Below the pieces are notes generated by a model, which worked only from the letters and a program-made list of their open reading frames with translations, made no database searches and was not told the DNA's origin. From assembly GCA_030562215.1 (NCBI GenBank), contig JAUPFL010000001.1, positions 2,468,501 through 2,532,500 of the forward strand: a stretch of 64,000 nt of DNA, written 5' to 3'. Positions within the stretch are counted from its first letter, which is position 1, and each line of letters begins with the position of its first letter. The translations under genes and the position numbers were made by a program. Positions 15,862 to 26,804 of this stretch are shown here, piece by piece. Origin of the DNA: Peribacillus frigoritolerans. GTDB taxonomy: Bacteria > Bacillota > Bacilli > Bacillales > DSM-1321.

Positions 15862-15890
15862 TTGTGTATATACTTTAAAAGTAATAACAT
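15862..15890 (+). promoter_or_regulatory. Probable promoter of the acyl-CoA operon
   Basis: TTGTGT (15862-15867), a 17-base spacer and TAACAT (15885-15890). The operator palindrome begins at the last base of the -10, which fits repression by the cluster's TetR protein. Confidence 0.5.
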
Positions 15891-15905
15891 ACTAACCGGT
15901 TAGTA
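15890..15905. promoter_or_regulatory. TetR-family operator 1
   Basis: The perfect 16-bp palindrome TACTAACCGGTTAGTA, 22 bases before the acyl-CoA dehydrogenase start. The identical sequence occurs once more, at 20213-20228. The likely ligand is the TetR protein at 19643-20206. Confidence 0.85.
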
Positions 15906-15927
15906 AGTTTAAAAGGAGGAATTCAAT

Positions 15928-17155
15928 TTGAACTTTGAACATACTCAAAAGGTGAAAAATCTGGAAAAGAAGTTAACGGAATTCATGGAGAAGCACGTTT
16001 ACCCAAATGAATCAATATACAAAAAGCAGCTCGAAGCACAGGAAAGCCGCTGGAGTGAAATTCCCCGATATTATCTGAATTGACGGCAAAAGCAAAAGAA
16101 GAAGGATTATGGAATTTATTTTTACCTGATAGCGGTTATGGCGCAGGTTTAACAAATCTAGAATATGCCCCGCTTTGCGAAATCATGGGTAGATCGTCGA
16201 TAGGACCTGAAATCTTCAACTGTAATGCGCCGGACACTGGTAATATGGAAGTGTTGGTGAGATACGGTTCGGATGAACATAAAGAACGCTGGCTGAAGCC
16301 CTTGCTTGCTGGGGAAATCCGCTCATGCTTCTCGATGACAGAACCGGAAGTGGCGTCTTCCGATGCGACCAATATCGAATGCAGGATAGAAAAGACGGGT
16401 AATGAGTATGTCATAAACGGCCGAAAATGGTGGTCTTCAGGAGCAGGCGATCCACGGTGCAAGATTGCCATCGTCATGGGTAAGACAGATCCTGAGGCGG
16501 CCAAGCATGAACAACAGTCAATGATTCTTGTACCGCTCGACACACCTGGTGTCAAAATCGAGAGAATGCTCCCTGTGTTTGGTTATGATCATGCGCCGCA
16601 TGGTCATGCTGAAATCACTTTTGAAAATGTGAGGGTCCCGGCAACGAATATTCTATGGGGTGAAGGAAAAGGATTTGCGATTGCCCAAGGAAGACTCGGA
16701 CCCGGAAGGATACATCATTGCATGAGGCTGATCGGCGCTGCTGAAAGAGCACTTGAAGAATTATGTAAGCGCATTCAAAACCGTGTCGCTTTTGGTAAAA
16801 CATTGGCGAGACAAGGTGTAGTCATGGAGTGGGTTGCTGATTCAAGGATTGAAATCGAACAAGCAAGACTTCTGACCTTAAAAGCTGCTTACATGATGGA
16901 TACTGTCGGGAACAAGGAAGCGAAGGCGGAGATTGCGATGATAAAAGTGGTTGCACCAAATATGGCATTGAATGTGCTGGACAGGGCCATCCAAGGCTTT
17001 GGAGCTGCAGGGATTTCCGATGATTTCCTTTTGCCGCTCATTGGGCCAATGCACGGACTTTAAGGCTTGCTGATGGTCCCGATGAAGTTCACCGATCACA
17101 AGTTGCTAAAATAGAACTTCGAAAATATCAACAAAAGCATGAGGTGAAAATATGA
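15928..17155 (+). CDS. Acyl-CoA dehydrogenase, ACAD10/11 (LvaC)-like, two frameshifts
   Basis: A flavin acyl-CoA dehydrogenase of about 409 residues after repair. TTG 15928 follows AAGGAGG at the right distance, with no ATG nearby. Motifs include [10 protein letters not shown]-like [12 protein letters not shown], the FAD/substrate loop [56 protein letters not shown] and the C-terminal [11 protein letters not shown]. These match the subgroup containing mammalian ACAD10/11 and Pseudomonas LvaC, which act on 4-phospho-acyl-CoA. Breaks are in a C4 run at 16063 (needs C5) and near 17031 (one G missing), just before the final helix. Its stop overlaps the next start (ATGA). It is first gene of the TetR-controlled cluster. 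Confidence 0.87.
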
Positions 17156-17925
17156 AAGTTACCGACTTATTCGATCTAACTGGAAAGACGGCGATCATAA
17201 CCGGTGGAGGGAGAGGGTTGGGAGCACAAATAGCGACCGGCTTTGCCGAAGCTGGGGCAAATGTCGTACTTTGTTCAAGGAAGAAGGAGGCATGTGACGA
17301 AGTTGCTTCGCAAATCCAAAAGCTTGGAGTCAAGGCGCTTTCCTTCAAGTGTGATATCACCAATCCGTCAGATGTACAGGAAGTTGTTAACGAAACTTAC
17401 CGTGAATTCGGTGCCATCGACATTTTAGTGAACAATAGCGGGGCATCCTGGGGGGCACCGGCCGTCGACATGCCCCTTGAAGCGTGGCAGAAGGTGATGA
17501 ATGTCAATGTAACCGGAACCTTTATCATGAGCCAGACAGCAGGCAGGGTCATGATTGAGCAGGGACATGGGAAAATCATAAACATCGCTTCCGTCGCCGG
17601 ATTAGGGGGTACCGACCCGAGGGTACTCGATACAGTCGGATATAATACGAGTAAAGGTGCGGTCATTACCTTGACGAAGGATTTAGCTGTTAAATGGGGT
17701 CAGCATAATATCAATGTCAATGCAATCGCACCCGGTTTCTTTCCGACAAAAATGACGAAAGCGGTTCTTCAGCAAGGAAAGAATCCTATCTTGGATTCCA
17801 CGCCGCTAAAAAGATTAGGGAGTGATGATGATTTGAAAGGGGCAGCGGTTTTCCTTGCCTCGAAGGCATCTGACTTTGTGACTGGCAATATCTTGATCGT
17901 CGATGGTGGTTCACATGCAAAGTAA
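17152..17925 (+). CDS. SDR-family oxidoreductase
   Basis: An intact 257-residue classical short-chain dehydrogenase. The cofactor motif TGGGRGLG lies near residue 18, then NNSGAS, the active-site Ser in IASVAGLGG, and YNTSK supplying Tyr and Lys. It is translationally coupled to the acyl-CoA dehydrogenase (4-base overlap). In the Pseudomonas lva cluster a comparable SDR (LvaD) accompanies the dehydrogenase. Here it could interconvert a keto and a hydroxy group of the substrate, or serve as a 3-hydroxyacyl-CoA dehydrogenase. The exact substrate is not readable from sequence. Confidence 0.9.
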
Positions 17926-17959
17926 TGCAAGGTAAGTAAATATGGCTGGAGGGTATGAA

Positions 17960-19570
17960 ATGATGAATGAAAAAAATGGCTTTCCGTTTATCCTGATTCA
18001 ATTTCAAAGGAAATAAAAGTCCCTGAGTTTCCGATGCAAAGAATCCTTCAAAATGCAAGTCAGTCCCATCCAACCAAAACAGCTATTACTTTTTATGACC
18101 GAAAGATATCTTATCAGGAACTTTTTCATGCGTCGCAAGCCTTTGCTTCAGCCCTGCAAAAAAGGGTGTTCAAAAAGGCGACCGTGTCGCCATCATGCTG
18201 CCTAACTGCCCGCAATACGTCATAGCTTATTATGGATCATTGACAACAGGAGCCATTATCACCCAAATCAACCCAATGCTGGTTGAAAGGGAGCTACAGC
18301 ATATTTTACAGGACTCCGGTGCAGAAACGATTGTGGTATTGGACGGATTATACCCGAAAGTGAAAAGTGTGCAGCAACATGCAAATCTGAAAAATATTAT
18401 CGTCGTAAGCCTTCAGGCATCGGATGCAGATTTCAAGCCTGATGCTTCTTTTGACCAATTCATGAAGACGGGAGACGGCAAAATCAATCCCGTATCAATC
18501 GATCCTGAAAATGATATAGCCGTTCTTCAGTATACAGGAGGAACGACTGGCCGTTCAAAAGGGGCGATGCTGACTCACAGCAATATTCTGGCCAATGTCG
18601 TTCAAACGTATGAATTCTTCAAGCATGAATTAAAAATAGGTACTGAAAGAACGCTGTCGGTCATCCCGCTATTTCATGTTTTTGGAATGTCGTCCGCAAT
18701 GAATTTATCCATATATATTGCGGGTGACTCCATCATGCTGCCACGATTCGAAATAGAAGAAGTGCTGGAAACGATTAAGCGTGAACAGCCGACCACTTTT
18801 CCTGGTGTACCGACCATGTATGTAGCGTTGACGAATCATCCAAAGGCAGAAGAATATGGAATGGGCTCAATTCAGGTCTGTAACAGCGGAAGTGCACCGA
18901 TGCCCGTGGAACTGCTGCGTGAGTTCGAACGAAAATCGGGTGCGAAGATATTGGAAGGCTACGGTCTTACGGAAGCTTCGCCAACAACGCATTGTAACCC
19001 GGCATTTGCAAAAAGGAAACCTGGGAGCGTCGGGATAGGCATCCCTTCGACTGAATATAAAGTGATGGACCTGGGAGACGGGACAAAAGAAGTGGCATCT
19101 GGCGAAATGGGGGAATTGGTCGTCAAAGGACCCCAAGTGATGAAAGGTTACTGGAATATGCCTGAGGAAACGGCGGTGACCCTTAGGGATGGTTGGCTTT
19201 ATACGGGGGATATCGCCAAAGTTGATGAAGATGGGTATCTCTATATTGTCGACAGGAAAAAGATTTGATCATCGCAAGTGGTTATAATATATATCCGCGA
19301 GATGTGGAGGAGGTACTCTATGAACATCCTGCTGTCCAGGAAGCGGTTGTCATCGGAGTTCCGGATGCTTACCGAGGGGAGTCGGTAAAAGCGGTCCTTG
19401 TACTTAAAAATAATAAAACGGCAAATGAACGGGAAATCATCGATTACTGCCGGGCAAACCTATCGGCCTATAAAGTTCCGCATTTCGTTGAATTTCGTGA
19501 AGAGTTACCGAAAACTAATGTCGGAAAGATTTTAAGGCGGGCTTTAAGAGAAGAACTTTCCAGGAAATAA
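17960..19570 (+). CDS. Long-chain acyl-CoA synthetase (AMP-forming), three frameshifts
   Basis: An ANL-superfamily acyl-CoA ligase of about 537 residues after repair. GGAGGG precedes tandem ATGs at 17960/17963. P-loop YTGGTTGRSKGA, A5 motif GYGLTEASP, A7 GWLYTGDIA and A8 region DRKKDLIIASGYNIYP are present, and the C-terminal domain holds the catalytic Lys in TNVGKILRRAL. Breaks sit in A-runs at about 17970 (A7 for A8), 18160 (A6 for A7) and 19258 (A5 for A6). The last one splits the A8 hinge. It activates the acid substrate of the cluster to its CoA ester (LvaE role in the lva comparison). Confidence 0.88.
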
Positions 19571-19642
19571 GAGGGCTTTGATAGTACGAAAGCGTATGAT
19601 ATCAATTCAGCTGAAATTTTAACAGATTGCGAGGATGCAAAC

Positions 19643-20206
19643 ATGAAAGAAAAAATGACAGAACATAGCATACGCTTATTTGAAAAGAAGGGCTTTAGTG
19701 AAACGTCGATTTCTGATATCGTCGAATCGGTCGGGGTGACGAAGGGAACGTTTTATTATTACTTTACGAGCAAAGAGCAGTTGCTTATGGATATTCATCT
19801 AGCTTATATAGACGAGTTGCTTAGTGAGCAGGAAATAATCATGTTGGAACCTGGGAAAAGCTGCAAGGATAAGCTTTTCGATATCGTATTGATGCTTTTA
19901 AAAAGCATCAAAACCAAAAAGTCCAGCGCAACGGTCTTTTTCCGTGAAATGAAGAATCTAAGTGACGAAAAACTTGCAGAAATCCTTCCTAAGCGGGATG
20001 AGTTCCGTAATAAAATCGAGCAAGTGCTGATAAGTGGCATCGAGAGCGGAGAACTACGTTCCAATCTCGATGCATCCATCATCTCTTTTGCTATTTTGGG
20101 TGTGGCCAATTGGAGCTATCATTGGTTCGACCCAGAAGGTGAAAAAACCGAACAGGAAGTTGCAGCCATTTTTATGGGGATGATTCTGCAGGGAATTGAA
20201 GCGTGA
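19643..20206 (+). CDS. TetR/AcrR-family transcriptional regulator
   Basis: An intact 187-residue TetR repressor. The N-terminal helix-turn-helix reads from TSISDIVESVGVTKGTFYYYF (about residues 21-41), and the rest is an all-helical ligand domain like those that bind acyl-CoA or fatty acids. It lies inside the cluster. The two identical palindromes at 15890 and 20213 flank the cluster's first half and the stretch just after this gene, so both halves of the cluster, and this gene through operon read-through, should be under its control. An acyl-CoA intermediate is the probable inducer (inference). Confidence 0.9.
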   Translation: MKEKMTEHSIRLFEKKGFSETSISDIVESVGVTKGTFYYYFTSKEQLLMDIHLAYIDELLSEQEIIMLEPGKSCKDKLFDIVLMLLKSIKTKKSSATVFFREMKNLSDEKLAEILPKRDEFRNKIEQVLISGIESGELRSNLDASIISFAILGVANWSYHWFDPEGEKTEQEVAAIFMGMILQGIEA

Positions 20207-20212
20207 GTTATA

Positions 20213-20228
20213 TACTAACCGGTTAGTA
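20213..20228. promoter_or_regulatory. TetR-family operator 2
   Basis: A second perfect TACTAACCGGTTAGTA, 7 bases after the tetR stop and 17 bases before the 3-hydroxyacyl-CoA dehydrogenase ATG. TATACT (20211-20216) overlaps it and may be a -10 for an internal promoter. Confidence 0.85.
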
Positions 20229-20245
20229 GAAGGGAGATAGAAGGC

Positions 20246-21128
20246 ATGACCAACAAGCAAATTCAATCAATTACCGTTATTGGGGCTGGGCAGATGGGGC
20301 ATCAAATTGCGATGCTTGCTGCACTTGGAGGTTACGAAACGATTCTTCAGGATGTTCAGGAAAACGCTTTGAACACAGCCAAAGAAAAACTGGACGTCAT
20401 TTTGACTAAATGGGTCCAAAAAGGAAAATTGTCTGAAGATCGTAAATTGGCTGCTTTTAGCCGTCTTCAATATACCACCGATCTTGAGAAAGCGGCCAGT
20501 GGAGCTGATTTGATCATTGAAGCGGTAGTTGAAAAACTTGATGTGAAACAGGAAGTTTTCGCTAAACTTGAAGAATTGGCCCCAGCAGAAACCATCTTTG
20601 CAACGAATAGTTCAACGATTGTCAATAGCCTGATTGCGAGTGTGACGAATCGTCCGGATAAGTTCTTAAATATGCATTTCTTTTTCCCGCCTCTAGTGAT
20701 GGATTGTGTTGAGGTTGTGATGAGTGACCAAACATCTGAGGAAACAGCGAAACTTGCGATGGAAGTCACGGAGAATATGAATAGGACAGGAGTTTTGTTG
20801 AGGAGGGAGATATCGGGATTCGTAGCCAACCGAATCTTGGGAGCGTTGCAGCGTGAGGCCTTATATTTGTATGAAGAAGGAATTGTTGATTATAAGGATA
20901 TCGATTTGATTTGCAGGAAAGCTTTAGGCCATCCAATTGGTCCTTTTGAACTGATGGATCTATCAGGTATTGATGTGGGATATTTTGTCATGCAGCAGCG
21001 TTACAATGAAACGGAAATCAGAAGACAAGCCGAATGCTTGTATAGAAGAAAAGGTGAATAAAGGACATTTAGGAAGGAAAACTGGCAAGGGCTGGTATGA
21101 TTATCCAAACCAAGGAGTGAAGAATTGA
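20246..21128 (+). CDS. 3-hydroxyacyl-CoA (hydroxybutyryl-CoA) dehydrogenase, frameshifted near 3' end
   Basis: An NAD-dependent 3-hydroxyacyl-CoA dehydrogenase, about 294 residues after repair. The Rossmann motif GAGQMGHQIA begins near residue 12. ATNSST and NMHFFFPP mark the active site (His in MHFF), and ALGHPIGPFELMDLSG lies in the C-terminal dimerisation domain. After 21008 the frame slips by two missing bases (or one extra). Then DKPNACIEEKVNKGHLG and KTGKGWYDYP follow in the new frame up to TGA 21126-21128, which overlaps the next ATG. It catalyses the third step of beta-oxidation. Confidence 0.87.
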
Positions 21129-21912
21129 TGACAAAATTAATTAGAGTGATTAAGGAAAAGGAAAATAAGCTTGCGGTCATCACCATCGATAATCCTCCAT
21201 TAAACGTAATCAGCAAACAAGTATTCAGGGAATTGGGAGAAACATTCGATGAACTTTCAAAAGATACTGAAACTGTTGCGGTACTCATAACCGGTGCAGG
21301 CAATATCGCATTTGCGGCCGGTGCTGATATAAAAGAATTCCCTAGCATGATGGGGAATCCAAATATGAAAGAAATGGTAAAGGAAAGTCATGCCGTCCTA
21401 ACTAAAATCGATCTGTTTCCTAAACCTACCATAGCTGTATTAAATGGCCTGACTTTGGGCGGCGGATGTGAACTGGCTCTGGCCTGTGATTTGCGAGTGG
21501 CCGAAACACAGGTCCAAATTGGTCTGCCGGAAGTGAAATTAGGCTTATTCCCTGGAGCGGGCGGTACACAGCGTTTGTCAAGACTTGTCGGGAATGCAAA
21601 GGCAAAAGAGATTATATTTACCGGTGATCCGCTTAGTGCCATGGAAGCGGAAAAAATCGGGCTTGTCAATAAAGTCGTTGAGCAAGGAAGCGGCTTATCG
21701 GAAGCGAAAATCTTGGCCTCACGAATGACAAGGCACTCACTTCAGGCACTTTCAAGAATCAAAAAGGCGATTAATGAAGGAAGTGAGACAACGCTTGAAC
21801 AAGGTCTAGAGATTGAAACGAATCTTTTGAAGAAATCTTCCAAACTGAAGATGTTAAAGAAGGGGTTTCCGCTTTCTTGGATAAACGTAAACCTGCATTC
21901 GTACATCGTTAA
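21128..21912 (+). CDS. Enoyl-CoA hydratase/isomerase, one frameshift
   Basis: A crotonase-fold enoyl-CoA hydratase of about 261 residues after repair. The oxyanion-hole segments are FAAGADIKEF and GLTLGGGCELALACD, and the catalytic Glu region is GLPEVKLGLFPGAGGTQRL, where both hydratase glutamates appear. The frame breaks at a T4 run near 21825. T5 restores LFEEIFQTEDVKEG and a stop at 21912, while the written frame runs on over the next gene. Its ATG overlaps the dehydrogenase stop (TGATG), so the two are coupled. Confidence 0.88.
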
Positions 21913-21927
21913 TCAAGGAGGGGTCTT

Positions 21928-22329
21928 ATGCATGAATTGGAAGTCAATGTCCGTTTTTCCGAAACGGATGCTTTGGGCCACATCAATAACACAAGCTATT
22001 TCATATACCTCGAAGAAGCACGCATGAAATTTTTTGAAGCTTTAGGCCTAGCGACAAATGTAGAATCTTGGAATTTTTTGTTAGCCTCCACTAAATGCGA
22101 CTTTATTGCTCAGGGATATTTCAATCAACTCTTGACCATTCGTACCTCTTTGACAAAGATAGGTACGAAAAGCTGTGAAATGGTCCATGATATCCTCTGT
22201 TCACAAACTGGGGAAGTGATTGCTAAGGGAAGTGCTGTATTAGTCTGTTTTAATTTTTTGAATCAAAAAAGTGAACCCATTCCAGAATTTATTAAAGAAA
22301 AGCTCATTTCACATCTTGTTCATAATTAG
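21928..22329 (+). CDS. Acyl-CoA thioesterase, 4HBT/FadM type
   Basis: An intact 133-residue hot-dog-fold thioesterase. RFSETDALGHINN near the N-terminus carries the catalytic Asp of the 4HBT (YbgC/FadM) class. AAGGAGGGG precedes the ATG. In catabolic operons such enzymes release dead-end acyl groups to free CoA. The substrate is unknown. Confidence 0.88.
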   Translation: MHELEVNVRFSETDALGHINNTSYFIYLEEARMKFFEALGLATNVESWNFLLASTKCDFIAQGYFNQLLTIRTSLTKIGTKSCEMVHDILCSQTGEVIAKGSAVLVCFNFLNQKSEPIPEFIKEKLISHLVHN

Positions 22330-22358
22330 AATGACAAAGTCTAAAGGAGTGGAAGAAC

Positions 22359-23418
22359 ATGGTTGACGATACGATTCCTGTTCGGCCCGGCGAGGAACTG
22401 AATATTGGTGCATTAGAAGGTTTCCTAAGAAAAAATATATTGGAACTTCCAAATGAACCTTGGAATTACAACAATTTTCTACGGGCTATTCCAATTTGAC
22501 CTATCAGCTGAAAATTGGTGAGTGGGAGGCTGTTCTAAGAAGGCCACCGCTTGGCCCTGTTGCTCCCAAGGCACATGATATGAAGCGTGAACATCATATC
22601 CTTTCCTCAATCAACCCGTATTTTCAAGCAGCTCCCGAGCCTATTCTGTTCTCGGATGATGAATCGGTTGCGGGGGCCCCTTTTTCCTAATGGAAAGGAA
22701 ACATGGAATTGTAATAGATACCGAATTTCCCAAGGGAATCAAGCCGACTGTTGAAAAGTGCCGACAGCTTTCTTATGTCATGGTGAATCGGCTTGCTGAT
22801 CTTCACTCGATTCCCTATGAGAAAACGGGATTGGTCGAAATTTCCAAACCTGAAGGGTTCATTGAAAGACAAGTACACGGATGGATTTCCCGCTATGAGA
22901 GAGCAAAGACAGATGAAATCAAGGAAATTCGTCCGCTTATCAATTATTTTCAACAGAATATTCCGAAGTATAGCCAGACTTCAATTATCCATTATGACTA
23001 TAAAATCAATAATGCCATGTTTAATCAGGACCTTACAGAGATGGTTGGTTTATTTGATTGGGAAATGTCCACCGTTGGTGATCCGCTAGCCGATCTAGGA
23101 GTGGCTCTAAGCTACTGGACGGAAAGCGGTGACCCGGAACTTATCAAAATCGGTGTGGGTCAAGCGTCCGTCACGACTTTAACTGGTTTCCTGACACGAA
23201 GGGAATTTATCGAGACATATGCAGCAAGAAGTGGCAGAGATGTTACCAACGTCGATTTTTATTTAACCTTTGGTTATTTTAAGTTAGCTGTCATCCTTCA
23301 GCAAATCTATTATCGATTTCAAAAAGGCCAGACTGATGATCCCCGTTTTTCCAATCTTGGCAAAACGGTTAAAAGCTTACTCACTCATGCTGCAAATGTA
23401 GCTGCGAAGGAAGTTTAA
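22359..23418 (+). CDS. APH-fold phosphotransferase, ACAD10/11 N-domain or LvaA-like, two frameshifts
   Basis: A kinase of the aminoglycoside phosphotransferase fold, about 353 residues after repair. The catalytic HxDxxxxN is intact in IIHYDYKINNAMF, and the Mg site is the following DWEMSTVGDPLADLG, a signature of the ACAD10/ACAD11 kinase domain. FSTGYSNLTYQL is the nucleotide loop and AVLRRPP carries the ATP-binding Lys/Arg. Breaks are in a T2 run at 22460 (T3 needed) and a T5 run at 22684 (T6 needed). In known systems the partner kinase phosphorylates the hydroxyl of a 4-hydroxyacyl-CoA, and the acyl-CoA dehydrogenase then removes the phosphate. Sharing a cluster with such a dehydrogenase supports that job, not antibiotic resistance. 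Confidence 0.86.
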
Positions 23419-23422
23419 TAGA

Positions 23423-24179
23423 ATGGGATATATACAAAACATTCATTTACTACTAAAAAAGAAGAGATAGATGTGGAAAAGCTTCAAGAAGGGGAGAAAG
23501 TCGCGGTCATCCTTGATGTGTTATTAGCGACCACAACGATTATTTCAGCACTTCATGATGGAGCACGCCAGGTGATACCTGTCATGGATCCAGTGGATGC
23601 CTTGGGGAAAAGCCAGGAATTGGTCCATGGGGATTTTATAGTGGCAGGAGAACTAAAAGCAAAGCCGGTTGATGATTTAATGTATCCAAGTCCGACGCTA
23701 TTGAGTAAGTTGGTACGCGGCAAAACATTAATACTGTCCACGACTAATGGAACGGTTGCGTTGAAGAATTCAGCCGCTGCCAAAAAGGTTTATATCGCTT
23801 CTTTGTTGAATAATCCGTCTGTTGCGGAAAAAAAAAAAAACATCATAAAACAGAAACGATCATCATCGTTTGTTCGGGAAATTCAGGTGAATTCAGTCTG
23901 GAAGACTTTTACGGTGCAGGTCATTTGATAGATTGCCTGATTTCTGGATCACAAGGTACGTTCATACTCAACGATGCAGCAAAGGCTGCCAATGCGCTTT
24001 ATCGCAAAAATAGCGAAAATGCCTTTGATATCCTGAAATCATCGTATGTTGGACAGTTGTTTGACAAACATAGTTTGATCGCCGATTTGGAATTGGCAGC
24101 GCAAATAGGTTCGTTAGATCTTGTGCCAGAGTTGGTTGATGGAAGGATCGAAGCAGAATTGAAAAGGCAGGAAACGTAG
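23423..24179 (+). CDS. ComB-family 2-phosphosulfolactate phosphatase, two frameshifts
   Basis: About 252 residues after repair. The N-terminal VAVILDVLLATTTIISALHDGA, AGELKAKPVD and TLILSTTNGTVAL, and later IIIVCSGNSGEFSLEDFYGAG, are the signature blocks of the ComB family of Mg-dependent phosphatases (coenzyme M synthesis in archaea; YitC in B. subtilis). The frame breaks in an A6 run at 23457 (A7 needed) and in an A13 run at 23828-23840 (A14 needed). It is placed between the hydroxyacyl kinase and an SDR with short gaps. No phosphosulfolactate synthase is nearby, so a substrate within the acyl pathway is possible (inference). Confidence 0.85.
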
Positions 24180-24207
24180 TTCGAAATTCGGATAAGGAGT
24201 GAAGGGG

Positions 24208-24987
24208 ATGAGGTTTTCACAGTCAATAGCGGTGGTGACAGGTGCAGGCTCTGGTATTGGGAAAGCTACGGCGATGCGCTTGTCGGACGAAGGGGCAAAA
24301 GTGTTGTTGGTAGGGCGGACGAAAGGAAAGCTGGAGGAAGCAGCTGCAGAAATCAATGCCAGGCACACGATTCCCGTTGCTGATATTTTCCCTGCAGATG
24401 TTACCGTCGAGGAAGATGTAATAGAGCTGGCCAAGTATGTGAAGGAACAATATCGTGACCTTCACATTTTAATCAATAACGCAGGTGGTTCAAAGTCCTC
24501 GAAGCTCCTGGATACATCTGCAGCTGATTGGGATATGATTCAACATGTCAATTTGAAAAGCGTCTTTCTAGTTTCCAAGTACTTGGGGAAATTGATGGAA
24601 GAAGGAGCTACCAGCGGAAATGAAGGTTCGATCAATCGGGCAATCGTGAATGTGGCTTCACTGTCAGGGCATCAGGCAGGAGCATTCATCCCGCATTACA
24701 GCTCTGCTAAAGCCGGGGTCATCAGTTTAACGAAATCTTTGGCACTGGAACTTGCTGCAGTCGGCATTCGGGTCAATTCCGTATCACCGGGATTCATTGA
24801 AACGCCATTAACGGAGGATGGATTGCAAAATGAAAAATTCGTAAAGTCCATTCAACGGAACACGGCACTGGAAAGAGTGGGGAAAGCGGAGGAAATAAGT
24901 AATGTCATTACCTTTGCTGCTTCCCCGGAGGCTTCCTATATGACTGGGACGGATTTATTGGTGGATGGCGGCTGGTTGATCAAATAG
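24208..24987 (+). CDS. SDR-family oxidoreductase
   Basis: An intact 259-residue short-chain dehydrogenase with TGAGSGIG (cofactor), NNAGG, active-site Ser in VASLSGHQAG and the YSSAK catalytic Tyr/Lys. ATG 24208 is preferred because AAGGAG at 24194-24199 overlaps the alternative GTG at 24199. It is the second SDR of the cluster and resembles FabG and 2,4-dienoyl-CoA-reductase-like members. The substrate is unknown. Confidence 0.88.
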   Translation: MRFSQSIAVVTGAGSGIGKATAMRLSDEGAKVLLVGRTKGKLEEAAAEINARHTIPVADIFPADVTVEEDVIELAKYVKEQYRDLHILINNAGGSKSSKLLDTSAADWDMIQHVNLKSVFLVSKYLGKLMEEGATSGNEGSINRAIVNVASLSGHQAGAFIPHYSSAKAGVISLTKSLALELAAVGIRVNSVSPGFIETPLTEDGLQNEKFVKSIQRNTALERVGKAEEISNVITFAASPEASYMTGTDLLVDGGWLIK

Positions 24988-25003
24988 AAAAGGGGATGTG
25001 TAT

Positions 25004-25780
25004 ATGTTAAAAGAACACTTATTGACAGAAGTAATCGATAATGTAATGATCCTGACTTTGAATCGTCCTGAAAGCTTGAATGCATTTAGTCCGGATATGA
25101 TTGCAAGCTTAACGAAAGCGATTAAGGATGTAAAACAAACACCGCATATAAGGGCAGTCATCATCAAAGGTGCGGGAAGGTCATTCACTGCAGGAGGTGA
25201 CGTCAAGTCAATGGGGAAGGCCTCTGCAGGTCAATTGTATGATCATGTTGGCAGAATGAATGAATGCATATTGGCTCTGGATGCTTCCGAGGTTCCCGTA
25301 ATCGCTGCCGTCCATGGATTTGCTGCTGGGGCCGGATTCAATTTGGCACTCGCCTGTGATTTGATCGTGGCTTCCGATGATAGTCAATTTGCCATGAGTT
25401 TTTCACAGGTAGGCCTGATCTCCGATGGAGGGGTTCATATTTTTACCTAAATTAGTAGGGCCCCACCTTGCAAAGCAGCTCTTCTTTTCAGCTGAGCCAA
25501 TTTCTGCGGAACGCTTATATCATTTGGGTGTCATTAATTATATATATCCACTCAATCAACTTGAAGAGGAATCATTGAAACTTGCGGAAAAGCTGGCAAA
25601 TGGACCGACAAAAGCATATGGGATGATGAAAAAGCTCGTTAGCCATTCATTTACGGCTACACTTGATGAAATACTGGAACAGGAACGTATAACGCAAACC
25701 TTGATGGCCTCCACAGAAGATCATCTGGAGGGAGTTGCAGCATTCAAAGAAAAAGAAAACCGGAATTTACAGGAAATTAA
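25004..25780 (+). CDS. Enoyl-CoA hydratase/isomerase, frameshifted
   Basis: A second crotonase-family protein, about 259 residues after repair. The N-terminal part has AGRSFTAGGDVKSM and GFAAGAGFNLALACDLIVA (oxyanion hole). Then SQVGLISDGGVH ends in a T-run slip at about 25439, with two bases missing. The rest continues as FLPKLVG, ISAERLYHLGVIN and so on. A third slip (A5 for A6 near 25753) removes the true stop at 25778-25780. As written, the frame runs straight into the downstream oxidoreductase. ATG 25004 is chosen because AAAAGGGGA is well spaced. It has Asp rather than Glu at one hydratase position (VGLISDGG), so isomerase-type chemistry is possible. Confidence 0.84.
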
Positions 25781-25796
25781 TAAGGGAGGGATAAAG

Positions 25797-26774
25797 ATGA
25801 GGGCTATTCATTTTGAAGAATACGGCGGACCGGAAGTACTGAAATTGACTGAAATGGAAAGACCTGTGCCAACAGGGCATGAAGTTCTGATTGAAATCGA
25901 TTGTGTCGGCGTCAATTATGCAGATACAGCCAGGAGGGAAGGGCAATATGTAGTACCTACGCCGCTTCCGTTCATTCCAGGTGCGGAAGTGGCTGGCGTA
26001 GTGGTGGAAGTTGGTGGAAAGGTGACCAAAATCAAACCTGGAACAAGGGTCGTCAGTTTAATTGAATCTGGTGGATATTCAGAATATGCCCTTTCTGATG
26101 AATTCTCGGCCATCCCGCTTCCTGATGCCATTCAGTTCCATGAAGCTGTTGCCTTGCCCCTCCAAGGTCTGAGCGCCTATCATATTCTGAAGACAATGGG
26201 ACGCATGCAACAGGGGGAAACGGTATTGGTCCATGCTGCTGCAGGGGGAGTGGGAACGATTGCCGTACAGTTGGCCAAAATCTTCGGGGCTGGAAAAGTG
26301 ATTGCCACCGCCAGCACAGTGGAAAAGCTGGAACTGGCTAAAGAGATGGGAGCAGATGAACTCATCGATTACACGAAAGAAGGATGGGAAATGAAAGTCC
26401 GTGAGGTCACGGGAGGAAAGGGAGTAGACGTCGCGCTGGAAATGGCTGGAGGGGATATTTTCAATAAAACTTTGAAATGTTTGGCTCCATTTGGACGTCT
26501 TGTTGTTTTTGGTAATGCAAGTCGTAAGCCTTATACGATGAATCCGCAGCAATTAATGAGGCGCAATCAATCCGTCGTGGGTTTTTTCCTGCCACAGATC
26601 ATGAAACACCCAGATTTGCTGTTGCCCAGCATTCAAGACCTTTTTGCATACGTTGCGTCTGGGGAGCTTAAGCTAACTATCGGAGGCATCTATCCAATTG
26701 AAAAGGCAGCAGCCGTTCATGAGGAAATGAACGCCCGTCAAACGAAAGGGAAGTTGATTTTGCAGGTGAAATGA
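25797..26774 (+). CDS. NADPH:quinone reductase-like zinc-free MDR oxidoreductase
   Basis: A 325-residue medium-chain dehydrogenase/reductase of the quinone oxidoreductase class. An N-terminal GroES-like domain (GVNYADTARREG) precedes the Rossmann domain with VLVHAAAGGVGTIAVQLAK. No zinc ligands are seen. It starts at ATG 25797 after GGGAGGG. It is the last gene of the cluster and is followed by a hairpin. It could act as an enoyl-CoA/enone reductase or a quinone reductase. The upstream open frame joined to it is an indel artefact, not a domain fusion. Confidence 0.9.
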   Translation: MRAIHFEEYGGPEVLKLTEMERPVPTGHEVLIEIDCVGVNYADTARREGQYVVPTPLPFIPGAEVAGVVVEVGGKVTKIKPGTRVVSLIESGGYSEYALSDEFSAIPLPDAIQFHEAVALPLQGLSAYHILKTMGRMQQGETVLVHAAAGGVGTIAVQLAKIFGAGKVIATASTVEKLELAKEMGADELIDYTKEGWEMKVREVTGGKGVDVALEMAGGDIFNKTLKCLAPFGRLVVFGNASRKPYTMNPQQLMRRNQSVVGFFLPQIMKHPDLLLPSIQDLFAYVASGELKLTIGGIYPIEKAAAVHEEMNARQTKGKLILQVK

Positions 26775-26776
26775 GA

Positions 26777-26804
26777 AGAAGGGGTGTATGATGCACCCCC
26801 TTCT
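26777..26804. terminator. Hairpin ending the acyl-CoA cluster
   Basis: AGAAGGGGTG (26777-26786) pairs with CACCCCCTTCT (26794-26804, one bulge). There is no real T-run, so it may be a weak terminator between convergent genes. Confidence 0.5.

Follow-up and report, generated by a model that had tools for sequence, protein, structure and literature searches.

The locus studied here raises the question of why a gene cluster for acyl-CoA catabolism in Peribacillus frigoritolerans carries, directly after a kinase gene, a gene of the ComB family (PF04029). In the window (the whole 64,000-nucleotide stretch of DNA that was analysed), a preliminary description had reported twelve co-directional genes and named eleven of them. 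We found the eleven named genes, and all twelve lie at the reported place on the + strand (15928-26774); the twelfth, which had been counted and left unnamed, proved to be the PF04029 ComB gene. In this assembly, with a completeness rating of 87% for the genome, frameshifts interrupt seven genes: ACAD, ligase, 3-hydroxyacyl-CoA dehydrogenase, both crotonases, kinase and ComB. All seven are intact in close relatives. One relative, G013 (locus L031), has all twelve genes intact in identical order, and the end coordinates given below for frameshifted genes come from reading the window sequence against L031.

15889..15905, no strand, TetR operator candidate 1, ATACTAACCGGTTAGTA, 5' of the ACAD gene
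15928..17155, +, ACAD10/11/LvaC-type acyl-CoA dehydrogenase, frameshifted, with signature motifs including LADGPDEVH
17152..17925, +, SDR 1, candidate 4-oxoacyl-CoA/4-hydroxyacyl-CoA oxidoreductase with a predicted LvaD-like role
17942..19570, +, acyl-CoA ligase (AMP-binding), frameshifted
19643..20206, +, TetR regulator (TetR_N, TetR_C_24)
20212..20228, no strand, TetR operator candidate 2, ATACTAACCGGTTAGTA, 5' of the 3-hydroxyacyl-CoA dehydrogenase gene
20246..21128, +, 3-hydroxyacyl-CoA dehydrogenase, frameshifted
21128..21912, +, enoyl-CoA hydratase/isomerase 1, frameshift close to its end
21928..22329, +, 4HBT-type thioesterase
22359..23418, +, APH-fold kinase of the ACAD10/11/LvaA kind, frameshifted; 353 aa intact in L031
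about 23423-24179, +, kinase-linked ComB-family (PF04029) phosphatase, frameshifted, with DVLLAT (Arg-to-Leu); 252 aa intact in L031
24199..24987, +, SDR 2
25004..25780, +, enoyl-CoA hydratase/isomerase 2, frameshifted
25797..26774, +, quinone reductase-like, zinc-type alcohol dehydrogenase family

The dehydrogenase had been proposed to resemble ACAD10/11 and LvaC, and every marker residue of that type was present. Using phmmer, the window-type enzyme scored 476 bits against ACAD11 (2wbi) and 147 bits against the best ordinary ACAD. It has equivalents of R626, H634, R637 and D753 of mouse ACAD11, which were reported for the phospho-substrate (Rashan 2025), and the window DNA encodes the ACAD signature LADGPDEVH past a frameshift. 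Together with the general Arg631, the set Arg626/His634/Arg637/Asp753 was complete in 104 of 151 locus ACADs (three PDB references included), which share 40-100% identity with the window type, and in none of the remaining 47 (21-33% identity). In a tree of 54 sequences picked from the 151, with ACAD10, LvaC and P. putida LvaA outside our trees, the window type fell with human and mouse ACAD11 in a 26-row clade (support 100/100) within a 34-row clade (100/99). Grouping with ordinary ACADs, which had been named beforehand as evidence against the proposal, was not seen. The kinase, likewise assigned earlier to the ACAD10/11 type, carries the motifs HYDYKINN and DWEMSTVGDPLADLG in the window. It resembles the ACAD11 kinase domain, with the catalytic Asp and the downstream Asn aligned (D220 and N225 of ACAD11), and H212, D214, N219 and D234 were invariant across 13 kinases aligned to ACAD11.

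Judged from sequence, the proposed 4-hydroxyacyl-CoA pathway is well supported by the ACAD residues and clade and by the kinase type, and the cluster very probably degrades 4-hydroxy acids as human ACAD10 and ACAD11 do. The gene order common to close relatives and the palindromic candidate operators further support the core pathway. We infer the individual reactions and substrates as follows: the ligase would convert a 4-oxo or 4-hydroxy acid into its acyl-CoA, SDR 1 would interconvert the two oxidation states at C4, the kinase would place phosphate on the 4-hydroxyl and the ACAD10/11-type flavoenzyme would eliminate it, yielding a 2-enoyl-CoA for entry into beta-oxidation through the crotonases and 3-hydroxyacyl-CoA dehydrogenase, with TetR as the regulator. 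The same kinase-elimination chemistry might instead act on a different hydroxyacyl-CoA, such as that of a branched or cyclic acid or one hydroxylated away from C4, in keeping with the additional genes of the window cluster (SDR, crotonase, thioesterase and quinone reductase-like) and with the MaoC-type hydratases or further ACADs added in related clusters. However, ACAD10-bearing cells formed phospho-acyl-CoA from 4-hydroxyhexanoate and not from 5- or 6-hydroxyhexanoate (PMC11342911), and the binding residues are identical here, which makes a different substrate improbable.

The cluster had also been placed under one TetR, and this is plausible, since a tetR gene is present together with a candidate operator palindrome that occurs twice. 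The palindrome ATACTAACCGGTTAGTA occurs with zero mismatches at 15889 and 20212, ahead of the first gene and of the gene following tetR, and 0 of 100 window shuffles gave an equal number of matches. With up to two mismatches, a form of it was found in 37 of 50 relatives' loci versus 4 of 50 shuffled loci (one shuffle each). Genome-wide, only the two cluster sites matched with at most one mismatch; this absence elsewhere carries little weight because a backward-read control pattern gave 7 matches. TetR may plausibly control the cluster through these palindromic candidate operators.

The P. putida lva operon (Rand 2017, as described in PMC6692424, PMC11342911 and PMC12440821) shares with the window separate kinase, ACAD, SDR and ligase genes in one cluster, and its LvaC-type ACAD has the phospho-substrate signature seen here (PMC12440821). 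The window differs in having TetR in place of LvaR and, behind the kinase, ComB in place of LvaB; it adds a thioesterase, two crotonases, a 3-hydroxyacyl-CoA dehydrogenase, a second SDR and a quinone reductase-like gene, and its twelve genes include no transporter. The mammalian enzymes are alike in that the window ACAD falls in the ACAD11 clade with the R626/H634/R637/D753 set and the kinase is like the ACAD11 domain; they differ in that the window proteins are separate and that the partner is ComB, not the fused HAD domain of ACAD10. We think that the ComB partner is the newer part of the finding relative to this known pathway. In the literature we found no earlier report tying ComB to the 4-hydroxyacyl-CoA pathway and no paper mentioning 9O56; two metagenome surveys mention both 2-phosphosulfolactate phosphatase and acyl-CoA dehydrogenase.

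ComB was closely linked to the kinase in the relatives of the window genome. Within the family, it was present in the cluster of 33 of 33 kinase-bearing genomes (kinase cut-off E 1e-20) and directly adjoined the kinase in 32. In a sample of 249 genomes from the order (cut-off E 1e-60), 97 had the kinase and the ComB type, 17 the kinase only, 2 ComB only and 133 neither, counted as raw genomes with relatedness ignored. ComB adjoined the kinase in 83 of the 97, and in 81 of these 83 it lay directly downstream on the same strand. The ComB type comprises the PF04029 matches classed as strong rather than weak by a limit of 145 bits, which was chosen after the scores were known and falls at no clean gap, the nearest scores being 144.2 (G062, distant from its kinase) and 151, and the fragmentary matches G000 and G045 were entered as strong by hand. 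When any PF04029 gene was counted with no bit line, it was present in 102 of 114 kinase-bearing genomes and in 15 of 135 others. In a sample of 299 genomes from the phylum, only 6 had the kinase (2 of these in the window's order) and at least 162 had PF04029. ComB was distant from the kinase in three of the kinase carriers, which belong to a single genus from outside the order; L196, the one of these that was read, kept the Arg discussed below. A phylum-wide link was rejected on these grounds, and we therefore regard the link as a trait of the window's order. In G450, a fourth kinase-bearing genome outside the order, the place of ComB was absent among the matches listed. Plasmids gave two ComB matches, both from Cetobacterium with <35% identity across 58% of the query.

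The kinase-linked ComBs formed a single clade with support 100/100 in a tree of 50 of 64 sequences, the remaining 14 being the broken L178 and 13 near relatives. The structure of a member from L081 matched that of canonical ComB 1vr0 (TM 0.85/0.93), and the conserved core of acidic and polar residues was retained in 48 of 48 kinase-linked sequences, two of which do not adjoin the kinase (L108, several genes off, and L200, on another contig). In contrast to 11 of 11 canonical sequences, the Arg of D(V/M/I/T)xRA(T/S), equivalent to R35, was found in 0 of the 48, Lys or Arg at position 82 in 1 and the N89 equivalent in 0. The kinase-linked clade has the PF04029 fold and the acidic core of canonical ComB (1vr0, 2yyv, 2z0j) and differs from it in lacking the R35, K82 and N89 equivalents and in its place in a catabolic operon. 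Of ten divergent loci with ComB from Bacillales, only four entered the alignment after the phmmer cut, none being among the 11 canonical sequences; three have the Arg and one has Ser. Because fold and core are retained while R35, K82 and N89 are lost, the kinase-linked ComB is probably a live enzyme with an altered substrate, its substrate-binding residues being predicted from conservation rather than from a ligand complex. The family name PF04029, and nothing else, favors a chance neighbour with the canonical phosphosulfolactate job; given the linkage in 97 of 114 genomes, the separate clade (100/100) and the loss of R35 in 48 of 48, we give this almost no credence.

Another phosphatase fold was found beside related kinases. 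A PF00300 histidine phosphatase family was represented at a distance of up to 4 kb from the kinase in 25 of the 49 non-Bacillota loci whose kinase could be read, and in 0 of 29 such Bacillota loci. Of the 30 genomes with this family, 24 have a member inside the kinase locus; outside Bacillota it would often stand in ComB's place. Its absence from Bacillota is not strict, because a Firmicutes MAG contig (L144), on which the kinase runs past the contig end, gave a partial match. In annotated plasmid regions, it adjoined the kinase in 9 of 14, with no phosphatase seen in the other 5. The arrangement is already noted, with a precedent in one strain: Habe 2019 (PMC6692424) describes the levulinate cluster of Pseudomonas citronellolis LA18T, in which, as in the window, a gene of a phosphatase family comes after the kinase; homologues of LvaC and LvaD follow, and the partner there is named a histidine phosphatase. 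No HAD phosphatase was recognized by one simple motif among the ORFs of 150-900 aa lying up to 5 kb from the kinase in 78 loci, a weak test. The partner is dispensable, because 17 of the 114 kinase-bearing order genomes keep ACAD and kinase without the ComB type and a phosphatase is missing from 5 of 14 plasmid regions. The 17 ComB-less clusters had neither a common small protein in the kinase-adjacent slot nor a member of the histidine phosphatase family, the window slot being PF04029. A substitute gene in that slot was rejected, as in 13 of the 17 the next cluster gene begins at most 45 bases from the kinase end, and the thioesterase was rejected as ComB's special partner since many of these clusters retain it.

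In human ACAD10, an HAD domain is fused to the kinase. The phosphatase activity of this domain is negligible, and its mutation gives more phospho-product (Paquay 2024). In the histidine phosphatase family, the canonical second His is Ser in 13 of 13 members; with the negligible ACAD10 HAD activity, this leaves the phosphatase chemistry of the partners uncertain. The main role of the phosphatase-fold protein could instead be to regulate the kinase or to support it structurally; it would then stand in for LvaB and for the restraining ACAD10 HAD domain, which still restrains the kinase with half of its DxD motif lost; the missing second His would fit as well. PMC6692424 reports that the 12-kDa LvaB of P. 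putida binds LvaA and is required for levulinate growth, and that in P. citronellolis LA18T, without lvaB, a histidine phosphatase adjoins the lvaA homologue; by locus number, lvaB would lie between lvaA and lvaC in P. putida. However, a bare scaffold would be expected to lose the core that ComB keeps in 48 of 48, and some clusters have no ComB, so we consider a mainly regulatory or structural role rather unlikely. ComB could also be a productive forward step that dephosphorylates 4-phosphoacyl-CoA, as Habe 2019 proposed for the histidine phosphatase (PMC6692424), and its place directly 3' of the kinase would suit this. Yet hydrolysis would merely regenerate 4-hydroxyacyl-CoA, the full phosphate-binding residue set in the ACAD implies that elimination should need no help, and the ComB type is missing from 17 of 114 genomes; a forward step is very improbable.

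The best reading is that unrelated phosphatase folds were recruited beside the 4-hydroxyacyl-CoA kinase and limit the phospho-intermediate or the kinase itself. More specifically, we tentatively propose, at somewhat less than even odds, that the partner was acquired at least three times independently (many phyla would have taken up a histidine phosphatase, the window's order ComB and the ACAD10 lineage HAD) and that the kinase-linked ComB is a new phosphatase of 4-phosphoacyl-CoA or the 4-phospho acid derived from the coenzyme M biosynthesis fold. ComB would hydrolyze unproductive or excess 4-phospho-acyl-CoA, or the free acid once CoA is lost, and so keep CoA and substrate from being trapped; free 4-phospho acid was found in cells, probably through CoA-ester hydrolysis (Paquay 2024). 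A strict dead end formed by the wrong enantiomer is without support, because the ACAD10 kinase and ACAD domains both accept R and S forms. For the whole reading, a Bacillaceae 4-hydroxyacyl-CoA pathway with a kinase-linked ComB re-targeted as phosphatase of the 4-phospho-intermediate, we estimate a probability of about 0.58.

Paquay 2024 left open why ACAD10 has an HAD domain that barely hydrolyzes the intermediate yet restrains the kinase. If bacteria repeatedly pair such kinases with unrelated phosphatases, the pathway would have an intrinsic requirement for control of the phospho-intermediate, which could be measured in the bacterial kinase-phosphatase pairs as simple systems. If true, the finding would also assign a function to a ComB clade currently annotated after coenzyme M biosynthesis. 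It would extend the known range of the levulinate/4-hydroxy acid pathway by many culturable Gram-positive bacteria, which may be useful for biomass-derived feedstocks.

The twelve co-directional genes claimed in the preliminary description were all found, on the + strand at 15928-26774, in the following order.

15928-26774, + strand, island of twelve genes:
acyl-CoA dehydrogenase (ACAD)
SDR 1
acyl-CoA ligase
TetR
3-hydroxyacyl-CoA dehydrogenase
enoyl-CoA hydratase
thioesterase
APH-fold kinase
PF04029-family protein (ComB)
SDR 2
second enoyl-CoA hydratase
quinone reductase-like dehydrogenase

Frameshifts interrupt 7 of the 12 genes in the window assembly, which is rated 87% complete. Because all twelve genes are intact and identically ordered in the close relative G013 (locus L031), we infer that these frameshifts are sequencing errors, and L031 proteins were the source for most comparisons. 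Within 15928-25780 the frameshifts resemble those of an unpolished long-read assembly, one of them adjoining a long poly-A run (23829-23840). In the annotated cluster of Cytobacillus spongiae (L209), the kinase is followed by a pair of small genes for MaoC-type hydratases and by one more SDR, and gene pairs of similar size to the MaoC-type pair occur in the clusters of four relatives (L043, L046, L047 and L109). In several genera (L042, L044, L045, L099 and others), a second ACAD of ~590 aa that lacks the phospho-substrate residues lies after ComB or after the kinase; the window island has no such gene. The palindrome ATACTAACCGGTTAGTA was found at 15889, before the ACAD gene, and at 20212, before the gene that follows tetR; none of 100 shuffles of the window reached as many matches. 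With at most one mismatch, the 5.4-Mb genome holds only these two sites, but this restriction is not evidence of enrichment because a backward-read control pattern matched 7 times. With at most two mismatches, counted anywhere in the locus, the palindrome was found in 37/50 relatives' loci versus 4/50 in one shuffle each. The island likely comprises two transcription units under TetR control.

In phmmer searches of the PDB, the window-type ACAD scored 482 bits against 4hr3, 476 bits against human ACAD11 (2wbi) and 463 bits against mouse ACAD11 (8v3u), versus 147 bits for the best ordinary ACAD. In mouse ACAD11, phosphate is described as held by R626, H634 and R637, with D753 as the catalytic base (Rashan 2025, PMC12440821). 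Equivalents of these four residues and of R631 were complete in 104 of 151 ACADs of the loci (three of the 104 being PDB references), which share 40-100% identity with the window type, whereas the remaining 47 (21-33% identity) all lack the complete set. A tree was built from 54 of the 151, with ACAD11 representing ACAD10/11 and LvaC. Its signature-bearing rows formed one 34-row clade (support 100/99), and the window type grouped with ACAD11 in a 26-row subclade (support 100/100); long-branch warnings fell on rows outside the 34-row clade. The earlier assignment as an ACAD10/11- and LvaC-like dehydrogenase thus holds, the full signature being present and the protein lying in the ACAD11 clade and not with ordinary ACADs. 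Of solved structures, 9o56 is closest to the kinase (471 bits across 344 residues); 3dxp (145 bits) and the kinase domain of ACAD11 (134 bits) follow. The 9o56 protein, titled an aminoglycoside phosphotransferase, is very closely related to the cluster kinase and probably a 4-hydroxyacyl-CoA kinase itself; we found no paper citing this PDB code. D214 and N219 of the cluster kinase, invariant in 13 kinases, align with D220 and N225, reported for ACAD11 as the catalytic Asp and a downstream Asn (Rashan 2025, PMC12440821), and together with the match to the ACAD11 kinase domain this agrees with the ACAD10/11-type APH-fold kinase proposed previously. We put the probability at roughly 85% that the island encodes a 4-hydroxyacyl-CoA kinase and a phosphate-eliminating ACAD, whose 2-enoyl-CoA product would feed beta-oxidation.

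The preliminary description left the ComB gene unnamed. The kinase and ComB occur together. In the window's family, the kinase was detected in 33/43 genomes (E 1e-20), and all 33 carry a cluster-type ComB, directly adjoining the kinase in 32 and ~5 kb off within the island in genome G004; among the 10 kinase-less genomes, one has a PF04029 gene, which is divergent. Across 249 genomes sampled evenly from the order, 114 contained the kinase (E 1e-60), 117 some PF04029 gene and 102 both. With a strong-ComB line of 145 bits, chosen once the scores had been seen, 97 genomes combined the kinase with a strong ComB, 17 had the kinase alone, 2 a strong ComB alone and 133 neither (Fisher p 2.8e-48, a statistic that ignores relatedness). 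Compared by hand, the two tables place the 97 under 31/47 family labels. The thermophile Geobacillus zalihae (L093) likewise carries the trio of kinase, ACAD and ComB. Kinase and ComB lie at most 400 bases apart in 83 of the 97 (ComB downstream on the same strand in 81, upstream in 2), within 15 kb in 7 and on different contigs in 7. As for the two ComB-only genomes, the G262 gene keeps the canonical Arg and the G164 gene is broken; the latter (L178) is split into two ORFs and looks like a decaying gene. Some Bacillaceae have, away from the kinase, members of a divergent second PF04029 group (e.g. with a DVIRAFT motif), and PF04029 is common in other Bacillota (at least 162/299 genomes), nearly all without this kinase.

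We compared 48 distinct ComBs of kinase-bearing genomes (46 in the kinase cluster, 2 not adjoining the kinase) with 11 canonical ComBs (three solved structures, seven from other Bacillota and one from a kinase-less order member). D32, G76-E77, T108-N109-G110-T111, N130, G153, D162, G167 and D185 are kept in 48/48. In contrast, R35 is Arg in 11/11 canonical and 0/48 kinase-linked ComBs (Leu 43, Phe 3, Ile 1, Met 1), position 82 is Lys/Arg in 11/11 versus 1/48, and N89 is present in 11/11 versus 0/48, where it is always Pro. The lost residues presumably bound the acidic substrate in canonical ComB. The kinase-linked ComBs form one clade (35 tree rows, support 100/100), and the predicted structure of the L081 ComB (mean pLDDT 90.9) superposes on 1vr0 with TM 0.85/0.93.

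Outside Bacillota, a ~240-aa gene near the kinase encodes a histidine phosphatase (PF00300 in 10/10 tested). From a scan with the kinase alignment, the best 80 of at least 590 kinase-relative stretches were taken; 30 of these are Bacillota loci (L081-L110), and the other 50 include L144, a Firmicutes MAG. Among these best 80, a profile built from 13 histidine phosphatases, themselves all among the 25 positives, found the family in 25/49 loci outside Bacillota with a readable kinase ORF (L142 weakly and L114 as a partial match), overlapping the kinase by 4 bases at the nearest and 3.8 kb from it at the farthest. It matched in none of the 29 Bacillota loci whose kinase could be read; many of the contigs are short. 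The family was present in 30 of the 50 whole genomes (E 1e-20), in single copy in 28, and lay in the kinase locus in 24 of the 30, or 25 counting the partial L144 gene. Among plasmid records, the kinase was found in at least 77 and the histidine phosphatase in at least 36, lower bounds because a single query was used; among 60 listed kinase records, the two lay at most 1 kb apart in at least 24 and 24 kb apart in one. Two PLSDB "plasmid" records of ~4 Mb each (CP064203 and CP104448) look like whole chromosomes. Fourteen annotated plasmid regions were inspected, the first six from the first 20 rows and the next eight mostly (7/8) from records without a phosphatase match. A histidine phosphatase gene adjoins the kinase in nine (Azospirillum, Pseudoalteromonas, Ideonella, a Rhodobacteraceae strain, Deinococcus radiodurans, Streptomyces, Azoarcus, Sulfitobacter and Deinococcus gobiensis; all six checked match the profile) and does not in five (Cupriavidus, Rhodococcus, Cytobacillus spongiae, Natrinema and Ruegeria).

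Given the core pathway, we favor ComB as the phosphatase of the kinase's phospho-intermediate. For Pseudomonas citronellolis LA18T, where LvaB is absent and a histidine phosphatase adjoins the kinase, the authors proposed that this enzyme may remove phosphate from 4-phosphovaleryl-CoA (Habe 2019, PMC6692424). Apart from that one-strain remark, we did not find this kinase paired with unrelated phosphatase folds across phyla in the open-licence literature, and the main texts of PMC12440821 and PMC11342911 say nothing of Bacillus, of Gram-positive bacteria or of histidine phosphatases in bacteria. A partner that acts as a regulator instead is rather unlikely, given the same pathway, but several facts leave room for it. 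The histidine phosphatases carry Ser at the superfamily's second His (13/13, aligned to phosphoserine phosphatase 4ij5), and the HAD domain of ACAD10 is described as retaining half of its DxD motif and showing negligible phosphatase activity, although its mutation raises the phospho-product (Paquay 2024, PMC11342911). LvaB, the 12-kDa partner of LvaA in P. putida that LA18T lacks, is reported to be needed for growth on levulinate (PMC6692424). Furthermore, the partner can be lost, since all 17 kinase genomes without a strong ComB keep a full-signature ACAD in the locus and no histidine phosphatase of the profiled family was found in those loci. By analogy with the known systems, levulinate, 4-hydroxy fatty acids and gamma-lactones are candidate substrates of the pathway.
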